Positions 9,070 through 47,788 of a stretch of 54,004 nt of DNA are shown here, one piece after another; within the stretch, counting starts at the first letter, position 1; every line of letters begins with the position of its first letter. The notes beneath the pieces were generated by a model. It did not search any database. It was not told where the DNA came from and saw only the letters and a list, made by a program, of their open reading frames with translations. The position numbers and the translations under genes are program-made. Origin of the DNA: a virus. Where the stretch lies: IMG/VR virus record IMGVR_UViG_3300046506_000272, positions 1 to 54,004 of that record; one strand, written 5' to 3'.

Positions 9070-9780
9070 ATGGCCGACGACCTGCTCGTCATCATCCCGA
9101 CCCGTGGGCGCCCGCAGGCTGTGCCGGAGATCGTGCAGGCGTGGGACGACACCGGGGCGACCGCCGATCTGCTGTTCGCGGTGGACACGGACGATCCGGA
9201 GCTGGCCGCGTACAAGAAGCACGCCGCGGCGCTGAAGGCGGACCCGCGGGTGCGGTTCACGTTCGGCAAGCGGCGGCGGCTGTGCGGCACCCTCAACGCG
9301 CAGGGGGTGAAGGCCGCCAAGACGTACCGGTACCTTGCCTTCCTCGGTGACGACCACCGGCCCCGGCCCGCCACGATGGCGTGGGACTTCCGGATCCGGG
9401 AGTGCCTGTCGGGTGGGCCCGGCATCGTCTACGGCAATGACCTCCTCCAGGGCGAGGCCATGGCCACGGCGGTTGCGATGACGTCGGACATCGTCGAGAC
9501 GCTCGGGTACTTCAGCCCGCCGTGCCTTGTCCATCTCTGCATGGATCTGGTCTGGGTTGAGTGGGGGCGCGGCATGGGCCGCATCACCTACCTGCCCGAC
9601 ATGGTCATCGAACACCTGCATCCGGCGGCGGGCAAGGCGCCCAGCGATGCGGGCTACGAAGAGGTCAACAGCCCCGAGCAGGTCAGCGCCGACTCGGCCG
9701 CCTACTACGACTACCGCGACAACGGCGGCCTCGAAGCCGACCTGGCCAAGCTGCGGAAGCTCGTCGAGGAGGCAGCGTGA
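9070..9780 (+). CDS. GT-A-type glycosyltransferase
   Basis: The 236-aa protein starts with IIPTRGRP, the usual first strand and loop of GT2-like enzymes. A GDDH motif at residues 93-96, after a hydrophobic strand (RYLAFLGDD), fits a nucleotide-sugar and metal-binding DxD site. RBS AAGGAG precedes the ATG. It opens a four-gene run with two methyltransferases and a sugar epimerase, directly after the spike. It may glycosylate a virion protein or DNA; the sequence does not decide which. Confidence 0.75.
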   Translation: MADDLLVIIPTRGRPQAVPEIVQAWDDTGATADLLFAVDTDDPELAAYKKHAAALKADPRVRFTFGKRRRLCGTLNAQGVKAAKTYRYLAFLGDDHRPRPATMAWDFRIRECLSGGPGIVYGNDLLQGEAMATAVAMTSDIVETLGYFSPPCLVHLCMDLVWVEWGRGMGRITYLPDMVIEHLHPAAGKAPSDAGYEEVNSPEQVSADSAAYYDYRDNGGLEADLAKLRKLVEEAA

Positions 9781-10373
9781 GCGCCGAAGACGTCATCCAA
9801 GCGTGGGATCAGGCCGACCCCGAGGCGATCCACCCCCTCCGCCGCGTCTCCGAGGACGCCTACTGGGAATCCGGCAAGGCGCAGGCGGAGATGCTCGCCA
9901 CCGTCATCCCCGACGGGGCGAAGGTGCTCGACTTCGGCTGCGGTGACGGCCGCGTCGCCATCCCGATGGCAGCGCTCGGCTACGAGGTGACCGCCGTCGA
10001 CTCCTCGCAGAAGATGCTCGACCGGCTCACCGAACGCGCCCCCGAGCTGGCCACCGTCCAGGCCACGGCAGACGGCATCGCCGCACACCTCGGGCGCCGC
10101 AAGATGGACGCCATCTACAGCCTCGCCGTCCTCATCCACCACAGCTACGCCGACTGCCTCAACATCATCGGCAAGCTGCGGGCCGCAACCAAGCTCGGCG
10201 GGATCCTCGTCCTCGACTGGCCGACCTCCGACCAGCCTGGCGAAGCCGACAGCTGGATCGGCGTCACCACCTGGTCCCGCGAGCAGCAGGCCGAAGCGTG
10301 CGAGCGGATCGGACTGGAGCTCGTCGACAGCGACCTGCCGTGGGGCGTCTACCGGGCCGTGAAGGCGAGCTGA
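9777..10373 (+). CDS. Class I SAM-dependent methyltransferase (first copy)
   Basis: The GTG at 9777 overlaps the stop of the glycosyltransferase gene. The 198-aa protein has motif I KVLDFGCGDGR (49-59), an acidic end of strand 2 (TAVDSSQ) and a later LVLDWP strand, a full Rossmann-type methyltransferase layout. It resembles small-molecule methyltransferases of the UbiE/type-11 class rather than DNA methylases, since no DPPY or PC motif is seen. A sugar or peptide substrate fits the context. Confidence 0.75.
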   Translation: MSAEDVIQAWDQADPEAIHPLRRVSEDAYWESGKAQAEMLATVIPDGAKVLDFGCGDGRVAIPMAALGYEVTAVDSSQKMLDRLTERAPELATVQATADGIAAHLGRRKMDAIYSLAVLIHHSYADCLNIIGKLRAATKLGGILVLDWPTSDQPGEADSWIGVTTWSREQQAEACERIGLELVDSDLPWGVYRAVKAS

Positions 10374-10376
10374 CGC

Positions 10377-10982
10377 GTGGCCGAGTGGAAGCTCTTCGAC
10401 GGACCACACCCACACGTCTCCACCATCGACTTTCACCGAGACCGCGAGCGCGCACCGCACCTGGAGCAGCCCGACCATCGGGCCCGCCTCAAGCGCTGCG
10501 CCCGGCTGATCCGCAACCTTCAGCCCGCCAGCGTCGTAGACCTCGGCTGCGGCGACGGAGGACTCCTCAGCCTCATCAAAGACATCCCCTCGTGGGGCTA
10601 CGACTTCCAGCCCAGCAACGAACCCGCATGGGCCGAACGCGGAGTGCAGGCGGAACGGCGCGACGTCTTCAACGCGCATGACGTACCCCGCTGGGGCGAG
10701 CTCGCCGTGCTCACCGAAGTACTGGAACACCTCGCTGACCCGCACGGCACCGTCGAATGGGTCAGCCGCCACACGACGTGGATCGTCGCCTCCTCGCCCC
10801 GGCATGAGACCGCCGACTTCCACGGCGACTGCCACGCCTGGGCCTGGGACGAAGGCGGGTACGTCGCTCTGATCGCACCGCACTTCGAGATCACCGTTCA
10901 CGAAGCCGTGGACTGGTCGCAGATAGTCGTCGGGAGGTCCAAGCGATGCGCGTCCTCATCACCGGTGCCGCTGGCTTCGTAG
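10377..10982 (+). CDS. Class I SAM-dependent methyltransferase (second copy)
   Basis: This 201-aa protein begins at GTG 10377, three bases after the previous stop. SVVDLGCGDGG (52-62) is motif I, and VLTEVLEHLADPHG is the usual post-motif region of type-11/12 enzymes. It is not a close copy of the neighbour, which argues for two different substrates. Its last 37 bases overlap the epimerase start, so all four genes of the cassette are coupled. Confidence 0.75.
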   Translation: MAEWKLFDGPHPHVSTIDFHRDRERAPHLEQPDHRARLKRCARLIRNLQPASVVDLGCGDGGLLSLIKDIPSWGYDFQPSNEPAWAERGVQAERRDVFNAHDVPRWGELAVLTEVLEHLADPHGTVEWVSRHTTWIVASSPRHETADFHGDCHAWAWDEGGYVALIAPHFEITVHEAVDWSQIVVGRSKRCASSSPVPLAS

Positions 10983-11812
10983 GCCGTCACCTGCACGCCG
11001 CCCTCGACGCGCGAGGCGACGACGTCACCGGCATCGATCTTGTCGACGGCCGCGACGCACTCGACCTCTTCCGCTTCGACCAGCGGCCTTACGACCTCGC
11101 CATTCACTGCGCGGCGATCGTCGGCGGCAGGGCCAGCATCGACGGCAGCCCGCTCGGTGTGGCCACGAACCTGGCGCTGGACTCCTGGTACTTCCGGTGG
11201 TTGATCCGCACCGGCACCCCGCGAGCCGTATTCTTCTCCAGCTCGGCCGCCTACCCGGTCGCACTCCAGCAGCCCGGCCCGATCCACCGGCTCGTCGAGG
11301 CGGACATCGACCTCGACAACCCCGGCAAGCCCGACGCCACCTACGGCCTGGCCAAGGTCGTCGGCGAGCAGCTGGCGGCTGTTGCGGAAGCCCACGGCAC
11401 CCGCGTTCACATCCTGCGGCCATTCAGCGGCTTTGGTGAGGACCAGGACGAGGCGTACCCGTTCCCCGCGTTCATCCGCCGGGCCCGTGAGCGGCAGGAC
11501 CCGTTCGAAATCTGGGGCGACGGCAGCTCGACGCGCGACTGGATCCACATCGACGACCTCGTCGGTGCCACTCTCGCAGCCGTCGACCAGGACGCCGCCG
11601 GGCCCATCAACCTGGGCTGGGGCAGGGCGACCTCGTTCGACGAACTCGCCGGGCTCGTCACCGCCGAAGCTGGCTACCAGCCGCAGCTCAAGCACCTCGC
11701 CTCCGCGCCGCAAGGCGTTCACCACCGGGTGTGCGATCCGAAACGGATGCTCGACGTCTACCAGCCGAGGATCACGATCGAAGAGGGCATTCGGCGGGCG
11801 CTCGCCGCATGA
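10946..11812 (+). CDS. NAD(P)-dependent sugar epimerase/dehydratase
   Basis: The 288-aa protein is an extended short-chain dehydrogenase. It has the N-terminal GAAGFVG nucleotide motif (7-13), a serine-rich strand (VFFSSSAAYP, 95-104) and the catalytic YGLAK (Tyr133, Lys137). STRDWIHIDDL and a C-terminal IEEGIRRAL helix are typical of GDP-fucose synthase and UDP-sugar epimerases. It would make an activated sugar for the neighbouring glycosyltransferase. The exact sugar cannot be read from sequence. Confidence 0.85.
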   Translation: MRVLITGAAGFVGRHLHAALDARGDDVTGIDLVDGRDALDLFRFDQRPYDLAIHCAAIVGGRASIDGSPLGVATNLALDSWYFRWLIRTGTPRAVFFSSSAAYPVALQQPGPIHRLVEADIDLDNPGKPDATYGLAKVVGEQLAAVAEAHGTRVHILRPFSGFGEDQDEAYPFPAFIRRARERQDPFEIWGDGSSTRDWIHIDDLVGATLAAVDQDAAGPINLGWGRATSFDELAGLVTAEAGYQPQLKHLASAPQGVHHRVCDPKRMLDVYQPRITIEEGIRRALAA

Positions 11813-13124: not shown

Positions 13125-13699
13125 TGGCCCGCCTGCAGATCCTCGAACTCCCCGAAGGCAGCGGTGATGACCGGCCGCCATTCATCCTCGTCATCGACCA
13201 GATGCCCACCAGCGAGCCGGAGTTCGACACTCTCCGCCGCGACCTCGCGGACAACGACATCGCCGCCCGCACCGGCGCCCGCGCCGTCCTCGTCTTCGAG
13301 GACACCATCGACATCCCCGCGAACGGAACGATGGCGCAGGAAGACGAGCCGCCACGCATCGTCGACTTCGCAGACCTGGCCGAGGCCAAGCAGCTGACCG
13401 AAGCCCGCGACGAAGCCCGCCAGTGGGCCCGTCACGGCTACGAGATCGGCCAACGCCACTGCGGGTGGACCGACCACGGCGTCGCACCCGACTGGCTCAC
13501 CGAAGGCTGGCCCCGCAGCTTCGACAGCTGCGAACACCTCCAGAAGGCGGCGGAGTACGACGAAGCTCTCACCCGGGTTCGCGCGGAAGTAGCCCGCATC
13601 CGCGCGATCACGCCCACGTGGGACCCTGTCGCCGACCTCATCGAAGCCGCGCGCAACGGCACCCAACAGCCTGCCGAGCGCAGCGCGCCCGATGCCTGA
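13124..13699 (+). CDS. Hypothetical protein
   Basis: The 191-aa protein begins with a strand-rich segment (LQILELPEGS, FILVIDQM, AVLVFEDTIDIP) in residues 1-65 and continues with helices (ARDEARQWARHGYEIGQRHC; YDEALTRVRAEVARIRAI). A conserved-looking WTDHGVAPDWLTEGWP lies between. No catalytic motif is evident. It overlaps the following gene by 8 bases. Confidence 0.65.
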   Translation: MARLQILELPEGSGDDRPPFILVIDQMPTSEPEFDTLRRDLADNDIAARTGARAVLVFEDTIDIPANGTMAQEDEPPRIVDFADLAEAKQLTEARDEARQWARHGYEIGQRHCGWTDHGVAPDWLTEGWPRSFDSCEHLQKAAEYDEALTRVRAEVARIRAITPTWDPVADLIEAARNGTQQPAERSAPDA

Positions 13700-13900: not shown

Positions 13901-14194
13901 ATGGCCGGAGGGTGGCAAGGCTCCGACCGCAAGGCCCGGCTCCCGTCGAACTGGCGGACCATCCGCGCCAAGGTGCTCGCCCGCGACCCGATCTGCAAGA
14001 TCTGCGACGTGCGGCCGTCCACCCACTGCGATCACATCGAAGCCAAGACCGACGCCCACGCCGAGGACAAGCTGCGAGGCGTGTGTGCCGAGTGCCACCT
14101 GCAGAAATCGTCACGCGAGGGGAACGACGCCCAGCGCGCCAACCCGAAGCCCGGACGGAAGCGCGAGCCTGAGCAGCACCCCGGACTCCTGTAA
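13901..14194 (+). CDS. HNH endonuclease, packaging type
   Basis: The 97-aa protein has the short HNH layout: a basic N-terminal helix (NWRTIRAKVLARDP), CKIC (32-35), CDH (43-45), CAECH (62-66) and a basic tail. HNH proteins of this size beside terminase genes are known partners in cos cleavage and packaging. This one lies about 1.8 kb upstream of the small terminase gene, unlike the larger mobile-type HNH at 3747-4328. Confidence 0.8.
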   Translation: MAGGWQGSDRKARLPSNWRTIRAKVLARDPICKICDVRPSTHCDHIEAKTDAHAEDKLRGVCAECHLQKSSREGNDAQRANPKPGRKREPEQHPGLL

Positions 14195-14204
14195 GGCGGT
14201 GACC

Positions 14205-14420
14205 GTGCCCGCCTACCTCATCGTCCACGCCGAACGACGCGGCGACGACACCGTCCTCGAAGACCCCGCCCTCACCCTCGAACTCACCCAAGACTGGGCA
14301 ACCTTTCACGACAGCACCGGAGTCTGCTTCGCCGTACCCCGCGAACGCATCGGCAGCATCATGCGGGTAGACGGAGAACAAGAACCCGCCGATCAAAGAC
14401 CCGCGCCGCAGAAGGAGTGA
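14205..14420 (+). CDS. Small hypothetical protein
   Basis: GTG 14205 has AAGG eight bases upstream and gives 71 residues; GTG 14199 in the same frame is too close to that site. The product reads YLIVHAERRGDDTVLED at the start and shows alternating strands and turns up to VPRERIGSI. Function is unknown. Confidence 0.6.
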   Translation: MPAYLIVHAERRGDDTVLEDPALTLELTQDWATFHDSTGVCFAVPRERIGSIMRVDGEQEPADQRPAPQKE

Positions 14421-14425
14421 TCACC

Positions 14426-14683
14426 GTGGCCAGCAAAGGACGCGGCACCCGACGTGGGGGCGGCAACGCACAGACCCTGCGCAACTACTGGACCCGCGGC
14501 GCCGGCGCCGCCAAGATCCGCTGGGGAACACCGGGCGACTGGTCCCGCTGCAACAGGCTCCTGTCGAAGTACATGGGATCAAGGGCCAAGGGCTACTGCC
14601 AGCTCAGGCACATGGCCGCGACCGGCATGACCACGAGCGCACACGCCAAGGCGCTACGAGGCGGAGCAAGCGGGCGACGGTAA
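14426..14683 (+). CDS. Conserved actinophage basic protein
   Basis: The 85-aa basic protein contains KIRWGTPGDWSRCNRLLSKY and AKGYCQLRHMAATG, a pair of motifs found in many Streptomyces phage proteins near the packaging genes. GTG 14426 is favoured because GAAGGAG lies about eight bases upstream; GTG 14417 would overlap that site. Its charge suggests nucleic-acid contact. Function is not established. Confidence 0.7.
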   Translation: MASKGRGTRRGGGNAQTLRNYWTRGAGAAKIRWGTPGDWSRCNRLLSKYMGSRAKGYCQLRHMAATGMTTSAHAKALRGGASGRR

Positions 14684-14844
14684 GCAGCACCCTTCACGTC
14701 ACGCCGCACTGCGGCCTGGCCGACCACGACACCAGCAGCACCGAACCCGACTCTGTGTGCGGGCCAGTCGCCCAGGACGACGGGTCGATCGGCTGGCTGG
14801 TGGTGCACCACTCCCTCGACGGCAGGGGGCAGGCCGAGGGGTAG
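14680..14844 (+). pseudogene. Second HHxLDGR-type small gene lacking a start codon
   Basis: The frame encodes STLHVTPHCGLADHD, a VCGP element and DGSIGWLVVHHSLDGRG, clearly a relative of the 65-aa product at 11809-12006. There is no ATG, GTG or TTG upstream of the conserved part in this frame back to at least 14401. The expected start is GTA (14680-14682), overlapping the previous TAA. An ancestral GTGA overlap mutated to GTAA would explain this. It is either inactive or uses GTA. Confidence 0.55.
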
Positions 14845-15279
14845 GGGCAGGCATGCCGGCCGCCCGTGCCCGCCCACCGGGTAGGCGTCGGCCGGCACGG
14901 CAGGCAGGTAGGGCGAGGCAGGCGATGTGGTCATGGTCATGCTGTCGACTCGTCGATCTGAGTGATCATCGAAGGTTGATCGAAGATCGATTGATGAAGA
15001 TCCAAAAGTGTTTGGATCAAGGTCGAACCAAGATCCGCAAGGCTGCGGATTCCATGATCCAGAACCAGGAATGATCATGGATTTTGACCATGATCACCTG
15101 GGGGGAGATCCCATGATCCACTTTATTGGGGGATCGGGCCCGTATAGCACCTGACATCGCCCCCGGGTTTCCAAGGCCGCTGACCTGCGACGATGCGCGA
15201 CCGGTCTAGTCCACTCGCCCTCGGGTGACGGGTAGCGGGATGGTAACGATGCAGGTCAGAGGTCTATAGTCGTGACATG
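14845..15279. other. Intergenic region with GATC-rich repeat array
   Basis: No convincing gene lies here. Within 14955-15135 there are thirteen GATC tetramers. Four copies of CCATGATC or its complement occur at 15053, 15073, 15088 and 15111. A perfect 8-bp dyad GATCCAAA/TTTGGATC lies at 14999-15018, an ATCCGCA/TGCGGAT dyad at 15034-15050, and a direct repeat TTGATCGAAGATC / TTGATGAAGATC starts at 14976 and 14991. The stretch is also less GC-rich than its surroundings. Its place before the terminase genes suits a cos or terminase-binding site, or an operator array. Confidence 0.7.
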
Positions 15280-15299
15280 GCACCCGCTAGACTGGGTGC
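15280..15299 (+). promoter_or_regulatory. Predicted leaderless promoter of the prim-pol-like gene
   Basis: A TAGACT -10 box (15288-15293) lies exactly six bases before ATG 15300, so transcription would begin at or next to the start codon. No ribosome binding site is present. The box sits in the loop of a GCACCC/GGGTGC dyad (15280-15299), which could serve as an operator. No good -35 was found. Confidence 0.55.
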
Positions 15300-15938
15300 A
15301 TGACCGCGACCGCCGTTGCCCGCCGCACCGTGTGCAAGCAGTGCGCTGGCCCGATGCCCCTGATGGCGCGGTCCGATGCGCGCTACTGCGGCGCGACCTG
15401 CAGAAAGCGGGCGAGCCGGTCGCGAATCACTGCCCGGCAGGAGCAGTTGGCGGCAGAGCGGCAGTCCCGCATCCCGTCGGAGTTGACTTCGCGCCCTCGC
15501 TGGGTGCGGCACAAGGACAAGGTCCCAATGCGCACCGACGGCCGCTTCGCCTCGGTCAAGGACCCGTCGTCGTGGTCCGACTACGCCACGGCCGCCGCCT
15601 CGAAGACCGGCGACGGAGTCGGCTTCGTGCTCACGGCTGGCGACGGCATCGTGGTCGTCGACCTGGACCACGCGGTCGAGGCAGGCCGGGTGTTGCCGTG
15701 GGCGCAGGGGATCGTGGACCAGTTGCCGCCGACGTACATGGAGCGCGGCCGGTCCGGTACCGGCCTGCACCTGTGGTTCCGTGGCGCGGTCTCGGCTGGT
15801 CGGCGTATCCGCAAGGGGGAGTTGGCGGTCGAGGTGTACTCGGATCGCCGCTACATCATCGTTGGCGACCGGGTTCCGGGTACGCCGCTCAGTCTTGCCG
15901 AGCTGCCTGACGCAGCCGGTTTGGTTGCCTCGCTCTGA
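15300..15938 (+). CDS. Prim-pol-like (AEP) domain protein with zinc finger
   Basis: The 212-aa protein starts with a zinc-finger segment (CKQCAGPM, YCGATCRKR, residues 12-36). Residues 68-205 look like the bifunctional primase/polymerase fold: VVVDLDH supplies an acidic pair, GTGLHLWFRG the central His, and AVEVYSDRRYIIV a further acidic residue. No helicase domain is attached, so it is much shorter than plasmid prim-pol/helicase proteins. It is encoded just ahead of the terminase in several actinophages; its role there is unclear. Confidence 0.75.
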   Translation: MTATAVARRTVCKQCAGPMPLMARSDARYCGATCRKRASRSRITARQEQLAAERQSRIPSELTSRPRWVRHKDKVPMRTDGRFASVKDPSSWSDYATAAASKTGDGVGFVLTAGDGIVVVDLDHAVEAGRVLPWAQGIVDQLPPTYMERGRSGTGLHLWFRGAVSAGRRIRKGELAVEVYSDRRYIIVGDRVPGTPLSLAELPDAAGLVASL

Positions 15939-15965
15939 CGCCCCGGCGGCGTCCCTTGCGGGGCG
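15939..15965 (+). terminator. Hairpin after the prim-pol-like gene
   Basis: A 7-bp perfect stem CGCCCCG/CGGGGCG with a 13-base loop begins at the base after the stop and is followed by CTGTCATTT. It separates the leaderless prim-pol transcript from the terminase operon, which starts 58 bases later. Confidence 0.5.
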
Positions 15966-16022
15966 CTGTCATTTCCAGCCCTTTGCGCGCCCTGGTGGCG
16001 TGCTCTGACCCTGGAGGTCGTC

Positions 16023-16463
16023 ATGGGCGCTCGTGGACCTATCGGTAAGCGCTCCGAGGAGCGCATGGGCCATCGCTCGAAGGAAGAGAAGGACTCGGTC
16101 ACGAAGGCCCCGTCGGGGCCGCCTCTCGATCTGCCGGATCTGCCGGATGCTGATCCGCTGTGGCATCCAATTGCCGTGGACTGGTACCTGTCGCTGCGTG
16201 AGTCGGGGCAGGCGGTGTTCTATCAGCCGTCGGACTGGGCGGTCGCCCGGTACGCCGCGGATCTGATGTCGAAGGTGCTCCTGTCGGAGCGGGGGCCGAA
16301 CGGGCAGCTGGTGGCGGCTCTGAACTCGGTGATGTCGTCGCTGCTGACGACGGAGGGCGACCGGCGCCGGGCCCGCATGGAGCTGGAGCGGAAGCCTGCG
16401 GGGAAGCAGACACCGGCTTCGGTGACAGCAATCGCCGACTACCGCTCTTCGATCGGTGGCTGA
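16023..16463 (+). CDS. terS: Terminase small subunit
   Basis: The 146-aa protein begins GARGPIGKRSEERMGHR, a start typical of actinophage small terminases, followed by a Pro/Asp linker (LPDLPDADPLWHP) and a helical core (WYLSLRESGQAVFYQPSDWAVARYAADLM). It recognises phage DNA and hands it to the large subunit. CTGGAGG precedes the ATG. Its end overlaps the large subunit gene by eight bases. Confidence 0.85.
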   Translation: MGARGPIGKRSEERMGHRSKEEKDSVTKAPSGPPLDLPDLPDADPLWHPIAVDWYLSLRESGQAVFYQPSDWAVARYAADLMSKVLLSERGPNGQLVAALNSVMSSLLTTEGDRRRARMELERKPAGKQTPASVTAIADYRSSIGG

Positions 16464-18198
16464 CGACGAGGTCCCCAACGTCGTCGAGCCTTTCACGCTT
16501 GGCCCGACGTGGAAGCGCGGCCCGGACGGCAAGTTCGTGCTACCCGAGTACACGCTGGGCTGGCATGCCCTGGCATGGACGGCGACCTACCTGCAGCACT
16601 ACGCCGGGAAGCCGTGGCGGTACACGGCCGAGCAGGCCCGGCTGACCCTGTGGTGGTACGCCATGGATCCGGTGACGAACCGGTTCCTGTGGCGGGACGG
16701 GGTCGTGCAGAGGCTGAAGGGTTGGGGCAAGGACCCGGTCGTCGGGTCGTGGGGCGCCTTCGAATTCGTGGGGCCGTGCCGGTTCGCTGGGATCGCGGAC
16801 GAGGGCAATGAGTGGGATGTCCCGCCCGGCCAGCCGTTGGGGCAGCAGCACCCGGCAGCATGGGTGCAGATGGCGGCGGTGTCGCAGGACCAGACCCGCA
16901 ACACGATGACTCTTTTCCCGGGGCTGTTCACGAAGCGCGCTCTGCATGAGTACCGGATCGACCTCGGCAAGGAGATCATCTATGCCGACAAGGGGCGGGC
17001 CCGCATCGAGGCCGTGACCTCGTCGCCGCGCGCTCTCGAAGGCGGGCGGCCGACGGCCACCTACCCCAACGAGACCCATCACTGGGTGGAGTCGAACTCG
17101 GGCCACGATATGGCGGCCGTCATCGAGCGCAACGCGACGAAGTCCGCAGACGGCGCGAGCCGCACCCTAGCCATCACGAATGCATTCGAGCCTGGCGAGG
17201 ACTCGGTGGCAGAGCGCACCCGGGATGCATACGAGGCCGCGGAGGCCGGTCGTGCCGCCGACACGGGCTTGTTCTACGACACCCTGGAGGCTCCGCCTGA
17301 GGCGAAGCTGACCGAGGCGTGGATCGAGCCGACGCTGCGGGCTGTGCGCGGGGATTCGACGTGGCTGGACATCGGTCGGTTGAAGGCGTCGATCCTGGAC
17401 GTCCGTAACCCGCCGTCCCGGTCGCGTCGGTTCTGGTACAACCAGATCGCCGCAGCTGAGGACGCGTGGATGGCCCGCTACGAGTGGGATGCCTGCAAGC
17501 GCGAGGATCTGGCGCTCGCCGATGGCGACGAGGTCGTCCTCTTCTTTGACGGATCCAAGTCGGACGATGCGACGGGCCTGGCAGCCTGCCGCATGTCGGA
17601 CGGATTGGTGTCCGCGCTCGGTGTATGGCAGAAGCCGGCGAACTGGCCGGCGCCGAACACTCCGGGCTTCGTGCCCTACCGGGTGCCGCGTGACGAGGTC
17701 CATGGCGTCGTCGAGAACGCGTTCGGTCGGTTCAAGGTGCTGGCGTTCTTCGCCGACCCGGGCTCCGGTCAGGACGATGACGACGGCGAGATGTACTGGG
17801 ACACCTACATCGACACGTGGGGTCAGACGTGGGGTCCCAAGCTGGCGCTGCGTTCCGTCCTGTCGGGTCCGAAGGCCCATGCAGTCCGGTGGGACATGCG
17901 TGACACCCGTAACCAGGAGACGTTCACGGAGGCCGTGAAGCGGACCCACGCGGACGTGCTGGAGCGGACGCTCATCCACGATGGCCACAAGGTGCTTCGC
18001 ACCCATGTGATCAACGCTCGGCGGCGCACGAACCGTTGGGGCATCACGATCGGCAAGGAGCACCGTGAGTCTGCACGGAAAATCGACTTGGCGGTGTGCA
18101 TGGTCGGGTCCCGAATGCTGCGCCGCATGATCCTCAACTCACCGAAGCGGGCCAAGAAGAGGACGCCGGGCAAGGGACGGGTGGTGGTGCTGCGGTGA
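16456..18198 (+). CDS. terL: Terminase large subunit
   Basis: The 580-aa protein starts at a GTG overlapping terS. The ATPase motif is KGWGKD (88-93), the deviant Walker A seen in this terminase family. The Walker B-type region includes NETHHW (205-210). The nuclease domain opens with FFDGSKSDDATGL, with Asp365 as a likely metal ligand, and continues to a C-terminal helix ending in a basic tail. It pumps DNA into the prohead and cuts it. Length is normal for the family. Confidence 0.93.
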   Translation: MADDEVPNVVEPFTLGPTWKRGPDGKFVLPEYTLGWHALAWTATYLQHYAGKPWRYTAEQARLTLWWYAMDPVTNRFLWRDGVVQRLKGWGKDPVVGSWGAFEFVGPCRFAGIADEGNEWDVPPGQPLGQQHPAAWVQMAAVSQDQTRNTMTLFPGLFTKRALHEYRIDLGKEIIYADKGRARIEAVTSSPRALEGGRPTATYPNETHHWVESNSGHDMAAVIERNATKSADGASRTLAITNAFEPGEDSVAERTRDAYEAAEAGRAADTGLFYDTLEAPPEAKLTEAWIEPTLRAVRGDSTWLDIGRLKASILDVRNPPSRSRRFWYNQIAAAEDAWMARYEWDACKREDLALADGDEVVLFFDGSKSDDATGLAACRMSDGLVSALGVWQKPANWPAPNTPGFVPYRVPRDEVHGVVENAFGRFKVLAFFADPGSGQDDDDGEMYWDTYIDTWGQTWGPKLALRSVLSGPKAHAVRWDMRDTRNQETFTEAVKRTHADVLERTLIHDGHKVLRTHVINARRRTNRWGITIGKEHRESARKIDLAVCMVGSRMLRRMILNSPKRAKKRTPGKGRVVVLR

Positions 18199-47557: not shown

Positions 47558-47788
47558 TTAGCCGTGAAGGAGGTCGGTGACGTGAACCCGCAGTGCGTGA
47601 GCAATCAGCAGAAGGTGGCTCAACTTCATCTCCTGGCCGGCTTCCATGCGCTGGATCGTCGACCGGTCGACGCCGCTGGTGTATGCGAGGGTCTCCTGAG
47701 TCATGTTCTGGTGCAGCCGGCGCACGCGGATGCGGTCGCCGGTGGCTCGGCGGGCGTCGAGGACCCACTCGGGCTGATCGGCTGGCAC
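47558..47788 (-). CDS. Short XRE-family HTH regulator
   Basis: The 76-aa protein is one Cro/CI-type HTH: RIRVRRLHQNMTQETLAYTS, then GVDRSTIQRMEAG and HLLLIAHALRVHVTDLL. GTG 47788 has AGAGG upstream. Upstream lies GATCATGATC (near 47807), which echoes the CCATGATC repeats at 15053-15118. It is transcribed away from the 48120 gene. Confidence 0.82.
   Translation of the reverse strand: MPADQPEWVLDARRATGDRIRVRRLHQNMTQETLAYTSGVDRSTIQRMEAGQEMKLSHLLLIAHALRVHVTDLLHG

Follow-up and report, generated by a model that had tools for sequence, protein, structure and literature searches.

Content and setting of the GATC array

What is the role of a dense array of GATC tetramers lying in front of the packaging genes of a Streptomyces phage? 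The question is raised by IMG/VR record IMGVR_UViG_3300046506_000272, of which the whole stretch of 54,004 nucleotides was analyzed and is here called the window. The array (14955..15135, no strand assigned) holds 13 GATC, starting at 14955, 14964, 14978, 14985, 14999, 15015, 15032, 15056, 15073, 15092, 15107, 15115 and 15132, with a spacing of 7-24 bp and a preference for the TGATCA-type extension. An earlier interpretation (the sequence-only reading) had counted 13 GATC in about 180 bases where roughly one was expected. The exact positions and Markov models bear this out, with 1.3 GATC expected per 181 bp at the window rate and 0.6 in a model trained on the flanks. The composition-matched count that this reading had called for gave at most 8 GATC per 181 bp when the whole window was simulated 40 times with an order-3 Markov model, while the array is the maximum of the real window, the best values elsewhere being 6 per 181 bp or 7 per 210 bp. 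When the training sequence was the array with its own GATCs, a Markov model reached 13 with P about 1e-4. A chance cluster was excluded by the simulated and observed maxima across the window.

The four-copy repeat, the dyad and the direct repeat described from the letters were all recovered in the array, namely CCATGATC in three copies and GATCATGG in one, the dyad GATCCAAA/TTTGGATC, and TTGATCGAAGATC. The stretch was also rightly described as non-coding, judged by composition, and as less GC-rich (47% vs. 68%). To the right of the array, the window has no GATC between 15136 and 15709. Between array sites lies a G-run/C-run stretch (15095..15118, no strand assigned) that in relatives is clearly an inverted repeat (CCCGGGGGGTGACCCCCTCCGGG) and here a weak one, the fold z of the region being +1.15 in the window vs. 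-2.9 in the relative L005. A DNA hairpin at -60..-35 from the cut deduced below, strong in L005 and absent in the window, was rejected. An RNA element was likewise discarded, with no Rfam match at the array, and a promoter and terminator scan of 14600-15400 returned nothing, including no sigma-70-type promoter match.

All genes around the array run rightward, in the order HNH, PHROG 6439 gene, array, prim-pol, TerS, TerL and portal. The HNH endonuclease gene (13901..14194, + strand, PHROG 333) is the constant partner of the array, and a gene for an 88-aa protein (14417..14683, + strand, PHROG 6439), with an all-helical model and no structural match, is nearly constant. On the other side are a prim-pol-like gene (15300..15938, + strand), the small terminase gene (TerS; 16023..16463, + strand, PF25673 Terminase_7) and the large terminase gene (TerL; 16456..18198, + strand). 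The array had been described as sitting between the packaging HNH and small terminase genes, which holds for the wider setting, while its immediate neighbors are instead the PHROG 6439 gene and prim-pol. In Samy, Krakatau and other actinophages, prim-pol comes first as counted from the left end, and Bauer has a similar gene close to that end. The prim-pol transcript may be leaderless, to judge from a TAGACT (15287-15302) that precedes the ATG by seven bases; this TAGACT lies downstream of an inverted pair, CTGACCTGC ... GCAGGTCAG (15180..15260, no strand assigned), that belongs to the left arm and is present with prim-pol-first relatives.

Position of the array relative to the deduced cos

Homology to Samy and the starts of related contigs place a cosN at 15141..15151 (+ strand), with an 11-nt 3' overhang, CGTATAGCACC, and the cut after 15151. 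The window's CGTATAGCACC, with TGAC following the cut, aligns with CGTTAAGGTGC of Samy, and the ends of Krakatau and VWB also align. Samy's 11-nt cos rests on a prediction from the termini of virion reads (PMC11302927) and is also given in the record annotation. Seven out of 47 IMG/VR contigs of relatives start within -10..+7 of the cut (L004 +2, L019 -7, L020 -10, L022 -6, L034 -6, L038 -3 and L026 +7), where we estimate that fewer than 0.2 would do so if starts were uniform over 5 kb. The PHROG 6439 loci included no right-end contigs that stop at the cut; such fragments are possibly rarely called viral. Together, the homology and the contig starts place the array at the deduced right genome end, directly left of the deduced cos cut. 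The combination of a cosN homologous to a mapped cos, independent sequence ends at the cut and an HNH gene near cos is that of Samy/HK97-like cos sites. The contig starts give a deduced defined-end signature instead of headful packaging from a pac.

The blocks that flank the cut behave differently. To the left of cosN, GATCGGGCC (15132..15140, + strand) is near-constant in relatives (GATCGGGGCC), with the G of its GATC sometimes lost. Just right of the cut, CCGGGTTTCCAAGG (15163..15176, + strand), i.e. +12..+25, is a conserved stretch that differs between terminase types and is a candidate TerS recognition block. The GC skew changes from negative to positive exactly at cos, both in the window (14000-16000) and in 8/8 relatives examined with both sides, though the genes on both sides run rightward. 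The same flip is found at the ends of the arrayless Krakatau and Bauer, and not in Samy.

Conservation among relatives

The sequence-only reading had proposed a comparison across related phages, and when 45 distinct relatives were lined up at the cut and profiled in 25-bp bins, the array proved to be conserved at the same cos-anchored place. The density is 19-44 GATC per kb in every bin from -225 to 0, 8 at -250 and about 1-11 beyond, giving a sharp boundary near -225. Of 11 records examined, 8 have their densest GATC cluster in the cos array; in G002 the array is tied, G029 has a denser cluster elsewhere, and G011 (L036) has no array. At 80-90% identity, GATC was kept at 0.80, vs. 0.53 for other 4-mers and 0.19 for a displaced-GATC control. 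The apparently strong conservation at 50-60% identity was mostly alignment attraction (0.42 vs. 0.31 in the control) and was not used. Of the array sites, 73% extend to TGATC or GATCA, against 39% of sites elsewhere; the full TGATCA accounts for 24%, vs. 5% in the background, and TGATC for 50%. The modal spacing among relatives is 14-17 bp, to which shared ancestry contributes.

The array is common, not universal. The number of GATC per locus was 2-15 in the relatives first collected and 0 to 15 overall, and L036, L152 and L249 have an identical cosN with almost no GATC. The exact cos was present in 7 of 392 sampled Streptomyces genomes, and these newly found sites had 5, 1, 0, 4, 9, 0 and 4 GATC in -225..-20.

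One right arm with different terminase types

A single type of right arm, consisting of HNH, usually PHROG 6439, the array and ATCGGGGCCGT, was found joined to differing left arms. To judge from these combinations, the array is a right-arm module: it accompanies the HNH gene, and the left arm is exchanged between at least three terminase types. TerS-A matches PF25673; TerS-B matches PF25673 at about 25% identity and has cosN GTATACGCGC or GTATTGCGGC; TerS-C has a weak Terminase_4 match and none to PF25673, with cosN such as GTCTAGAAGC. The mean number of GATC with the three types was 7.7, 8.6 and 10, while the right half of cosN and the block at +12..+25 change with the type. The comparison of loci thus supports the location of the array, its conservation, its link to cos and its independence from TerS type, although the three types may be weaker support than three independent cases, since the left arms may have recombined few times and recently. 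Two 88-92 kb Streptomyces plasmids that are probably phage-plasmids (L197 and L198; NZ_CP109578 and NZ_CP108705) have one right arm in common and differ in the left arms joined to it at cos.

In the records of 10 relatives, HNH, PHROG 6439 and most head-tail genes were found in 10/10, prim-pol in 6/10, XRE in 4/10 and Ku in 2/10. The earlier suggestion of an operator for the prim-pol gene is not supported, as about half of the array-bearing loci lack prim-pol there. An operator array for the XRE repressor (47558-47788) was rejected as well, the homologue being too rarely found for a conserved repressor, and none of prim-pol, XRE repressor and Dam methylases tracks with the array. TerS is a less likely binder than a right-arm product (HNH, PHROG 6439), a host factor or one of the constant proteins of the head module. 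Aquatic phages of about 47% GC also commonly encode the PHROG 6439 protein, and in many of them the surrounding 6 kb contain few or no GATC; with such arrayless homologues and a model without PDB match, the protein was dismissed as a general GATC-array binder.

Cos-bearing elements without the array

The two zeros among the newly found sites are chromosomal elements, L250 and L255, with an identical cosN, a TerS-C-like gene and no array; HNH was not detected, and no other phage query genes occur within about 1.5 kb of cos. They are perhaps phage satellites. Cos-like sites without the array were also found on Streptomyces plasmids (L196:2430-2510, L245:6238-6372, L246:6001-6096 and L247:6001-6143). 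Three of the plasmids, NZ_CP109526 (14 kb), NZ_CP108534 (26,964 bp, with its start repeated at 13,482) and NZ_CP109563, have TraB and a P4-type primase, and a fourth, NZ_CP108862, is 268 kb. Such plasmids possibly hijack phage packaging. Since satellite-like elements and plasmids carry a similar cos without the array, the array is, on this distribution, not essential for cos recognition, and more likely modulates than defines the cut.

The idea of a cos/terminase-binding site stands in its first half, with the array adjoining the deduced cosN, and becomes doubtful in its second. The array is probably not the TerS site, because it is kept with unlike TerS families, the same cosN occurs without it, and the TerS site of HK97 lies at +15..+29, on the opposite side of the cut (PMC11331095). 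The simplest reading is that TerS would read the left-arm block and something else the array.

Possible roles of the array

Our preferred reading, to which we give a probability of roughly 0.45, is that the array is a putative accessory multi-site packaging or terminus element, with a P1-pac-like architecture that is one-sided and without Dam. It would make up the right-hand end of the linear genome in the virion, adjoining the cos cut from the left, and its TGATCA-type sites, spread over about 210 bp, would be bound in multiple copies by a protein working with the terminase. Like the TGATCA/G hexamers of P1 pac, the bound array would help the packaging complex to assemble on, pause at or cut cos, while TerS would recognize the left-arm block at +12..+25. 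Both the protein binding and the effect on packaging are inferred.

Other roles were weighed against the same observations. Once the ends are joined, the array could be an enhancer or operator for the late operon just right of cos, with prim-pol or TerS as first gene. It always lies upstream of the first late gene, and multiple short sites at 14-17 bp spacing would suit a cooperative regulator. The left arm, where the promoter would be expected, differs among types while the array is unchanged, however, and the XRE and prim-pol genes are inconstant and no sigma-70-type promoter was matched, so that we regard this role as unlikely. A replication origin, in which short sites resembling iterons lie in AT-richer DNA, would be in line with the GC content of 47% and the skew flip at cos, yet it appears distinctly unlikely, given that the flip recurs at arrayless ends and that no constant replication gene stands beside the array. 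Only GATC is common to the array sites, which sets them apart from the identical direct iterons beside a Rep gene of an iteron origin, and array GC follows the number of GATC (r = -0.87), few-site arrays having 60-70% GC.

As the last 200 bp on the right, the array could serve in protection, circularization or DNA entry of that end, read on linear DNA by a virion, phage or host protein. The window encodes a Ku-family protein (PF02735; 41269-42177), found in just 2/10 relatives, and we hold this role to be very unlikely. Least probable is a methylation-controlled packaging switch as in P1, acting via GATC adenine methylation: it would make sense of the TGATCA-type hexamers and the high GATC density, but the window has no match to PF02086, PF05869 or PF01555, which gave 2, 0 and 6 hits, respectively, over 34 records.

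Comparison with known packaging sites

Lambda, with its cosQ and cosB, is similar in that its cos is also multipart, with accessory sites around cosN. The R sites of lambda, however, are longer, small in number and located on the left arm, and cosQ is a single short element. The best functional parallel, by analogy, is P1 pac, where the densest GATC cluster of P1 is exactly pac, all sites are TGATC, and the spacing is 7-28 bp within each side. P1 pac is bound by PacA/PacB, and hexamer mutation was reported to reduce packaging (PMC10028697). The two are alike in having the densest GATC cluster at the packaging cut, and part of the array sites have the TGATCA-type extension. P1, however, has its sites to either side of the cut and within pacA, where Dam regulates them and packaging is headful, whereas the array is one-sided, intergenic and at a deduced defined-end cos, with Dam-type families absent from the window and rare in relatives.

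The HK97-type cos shares the 3' overhang cosN, the nearby HNH gene, the downstream TerS and TerL and the conserved block at +12..+25. It differs in the TerS site on the left-arm side and, as far as the available part of the report goes (PMC11331095), in that a GATC array is not reported. Samy is similar in its 11-nt read-mapped cos, prim-pol as first gene in the left arm and HNH near the right end; its last 225 bp have 5 GATC, fewer and wider-spaced than in the array and mostly inside a coding gene. In the open-access literature searched, we found no earlier account of a cos with such a GATC array.

Should the array act in packaging, cos phages would possess an accessory signal of many sites that can be separated from the TerS site and passed from one terminase to another. 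It would then become testable by what means a phage distinguishes its own end from that of cos-copying satellites. A bolder version, which we consider a long shot, is a new class of cos accessory element, i.e. a right-end TGATCA array whose non-TerS, non-Dam reader would favor the phage's own genome over arrayless satellites and plasmids with the same cosN. The array is also a sequence handle for locating cos sites in Streptomyces prophages and phage-plasmids.

Lastly, elsewhere in the window (9070-11812), genes for a glycosyltransferase, two small-molecule-type methyltransferases and a sugar epimerase may together be a sugar cargo module, which about half of the relatives retain.
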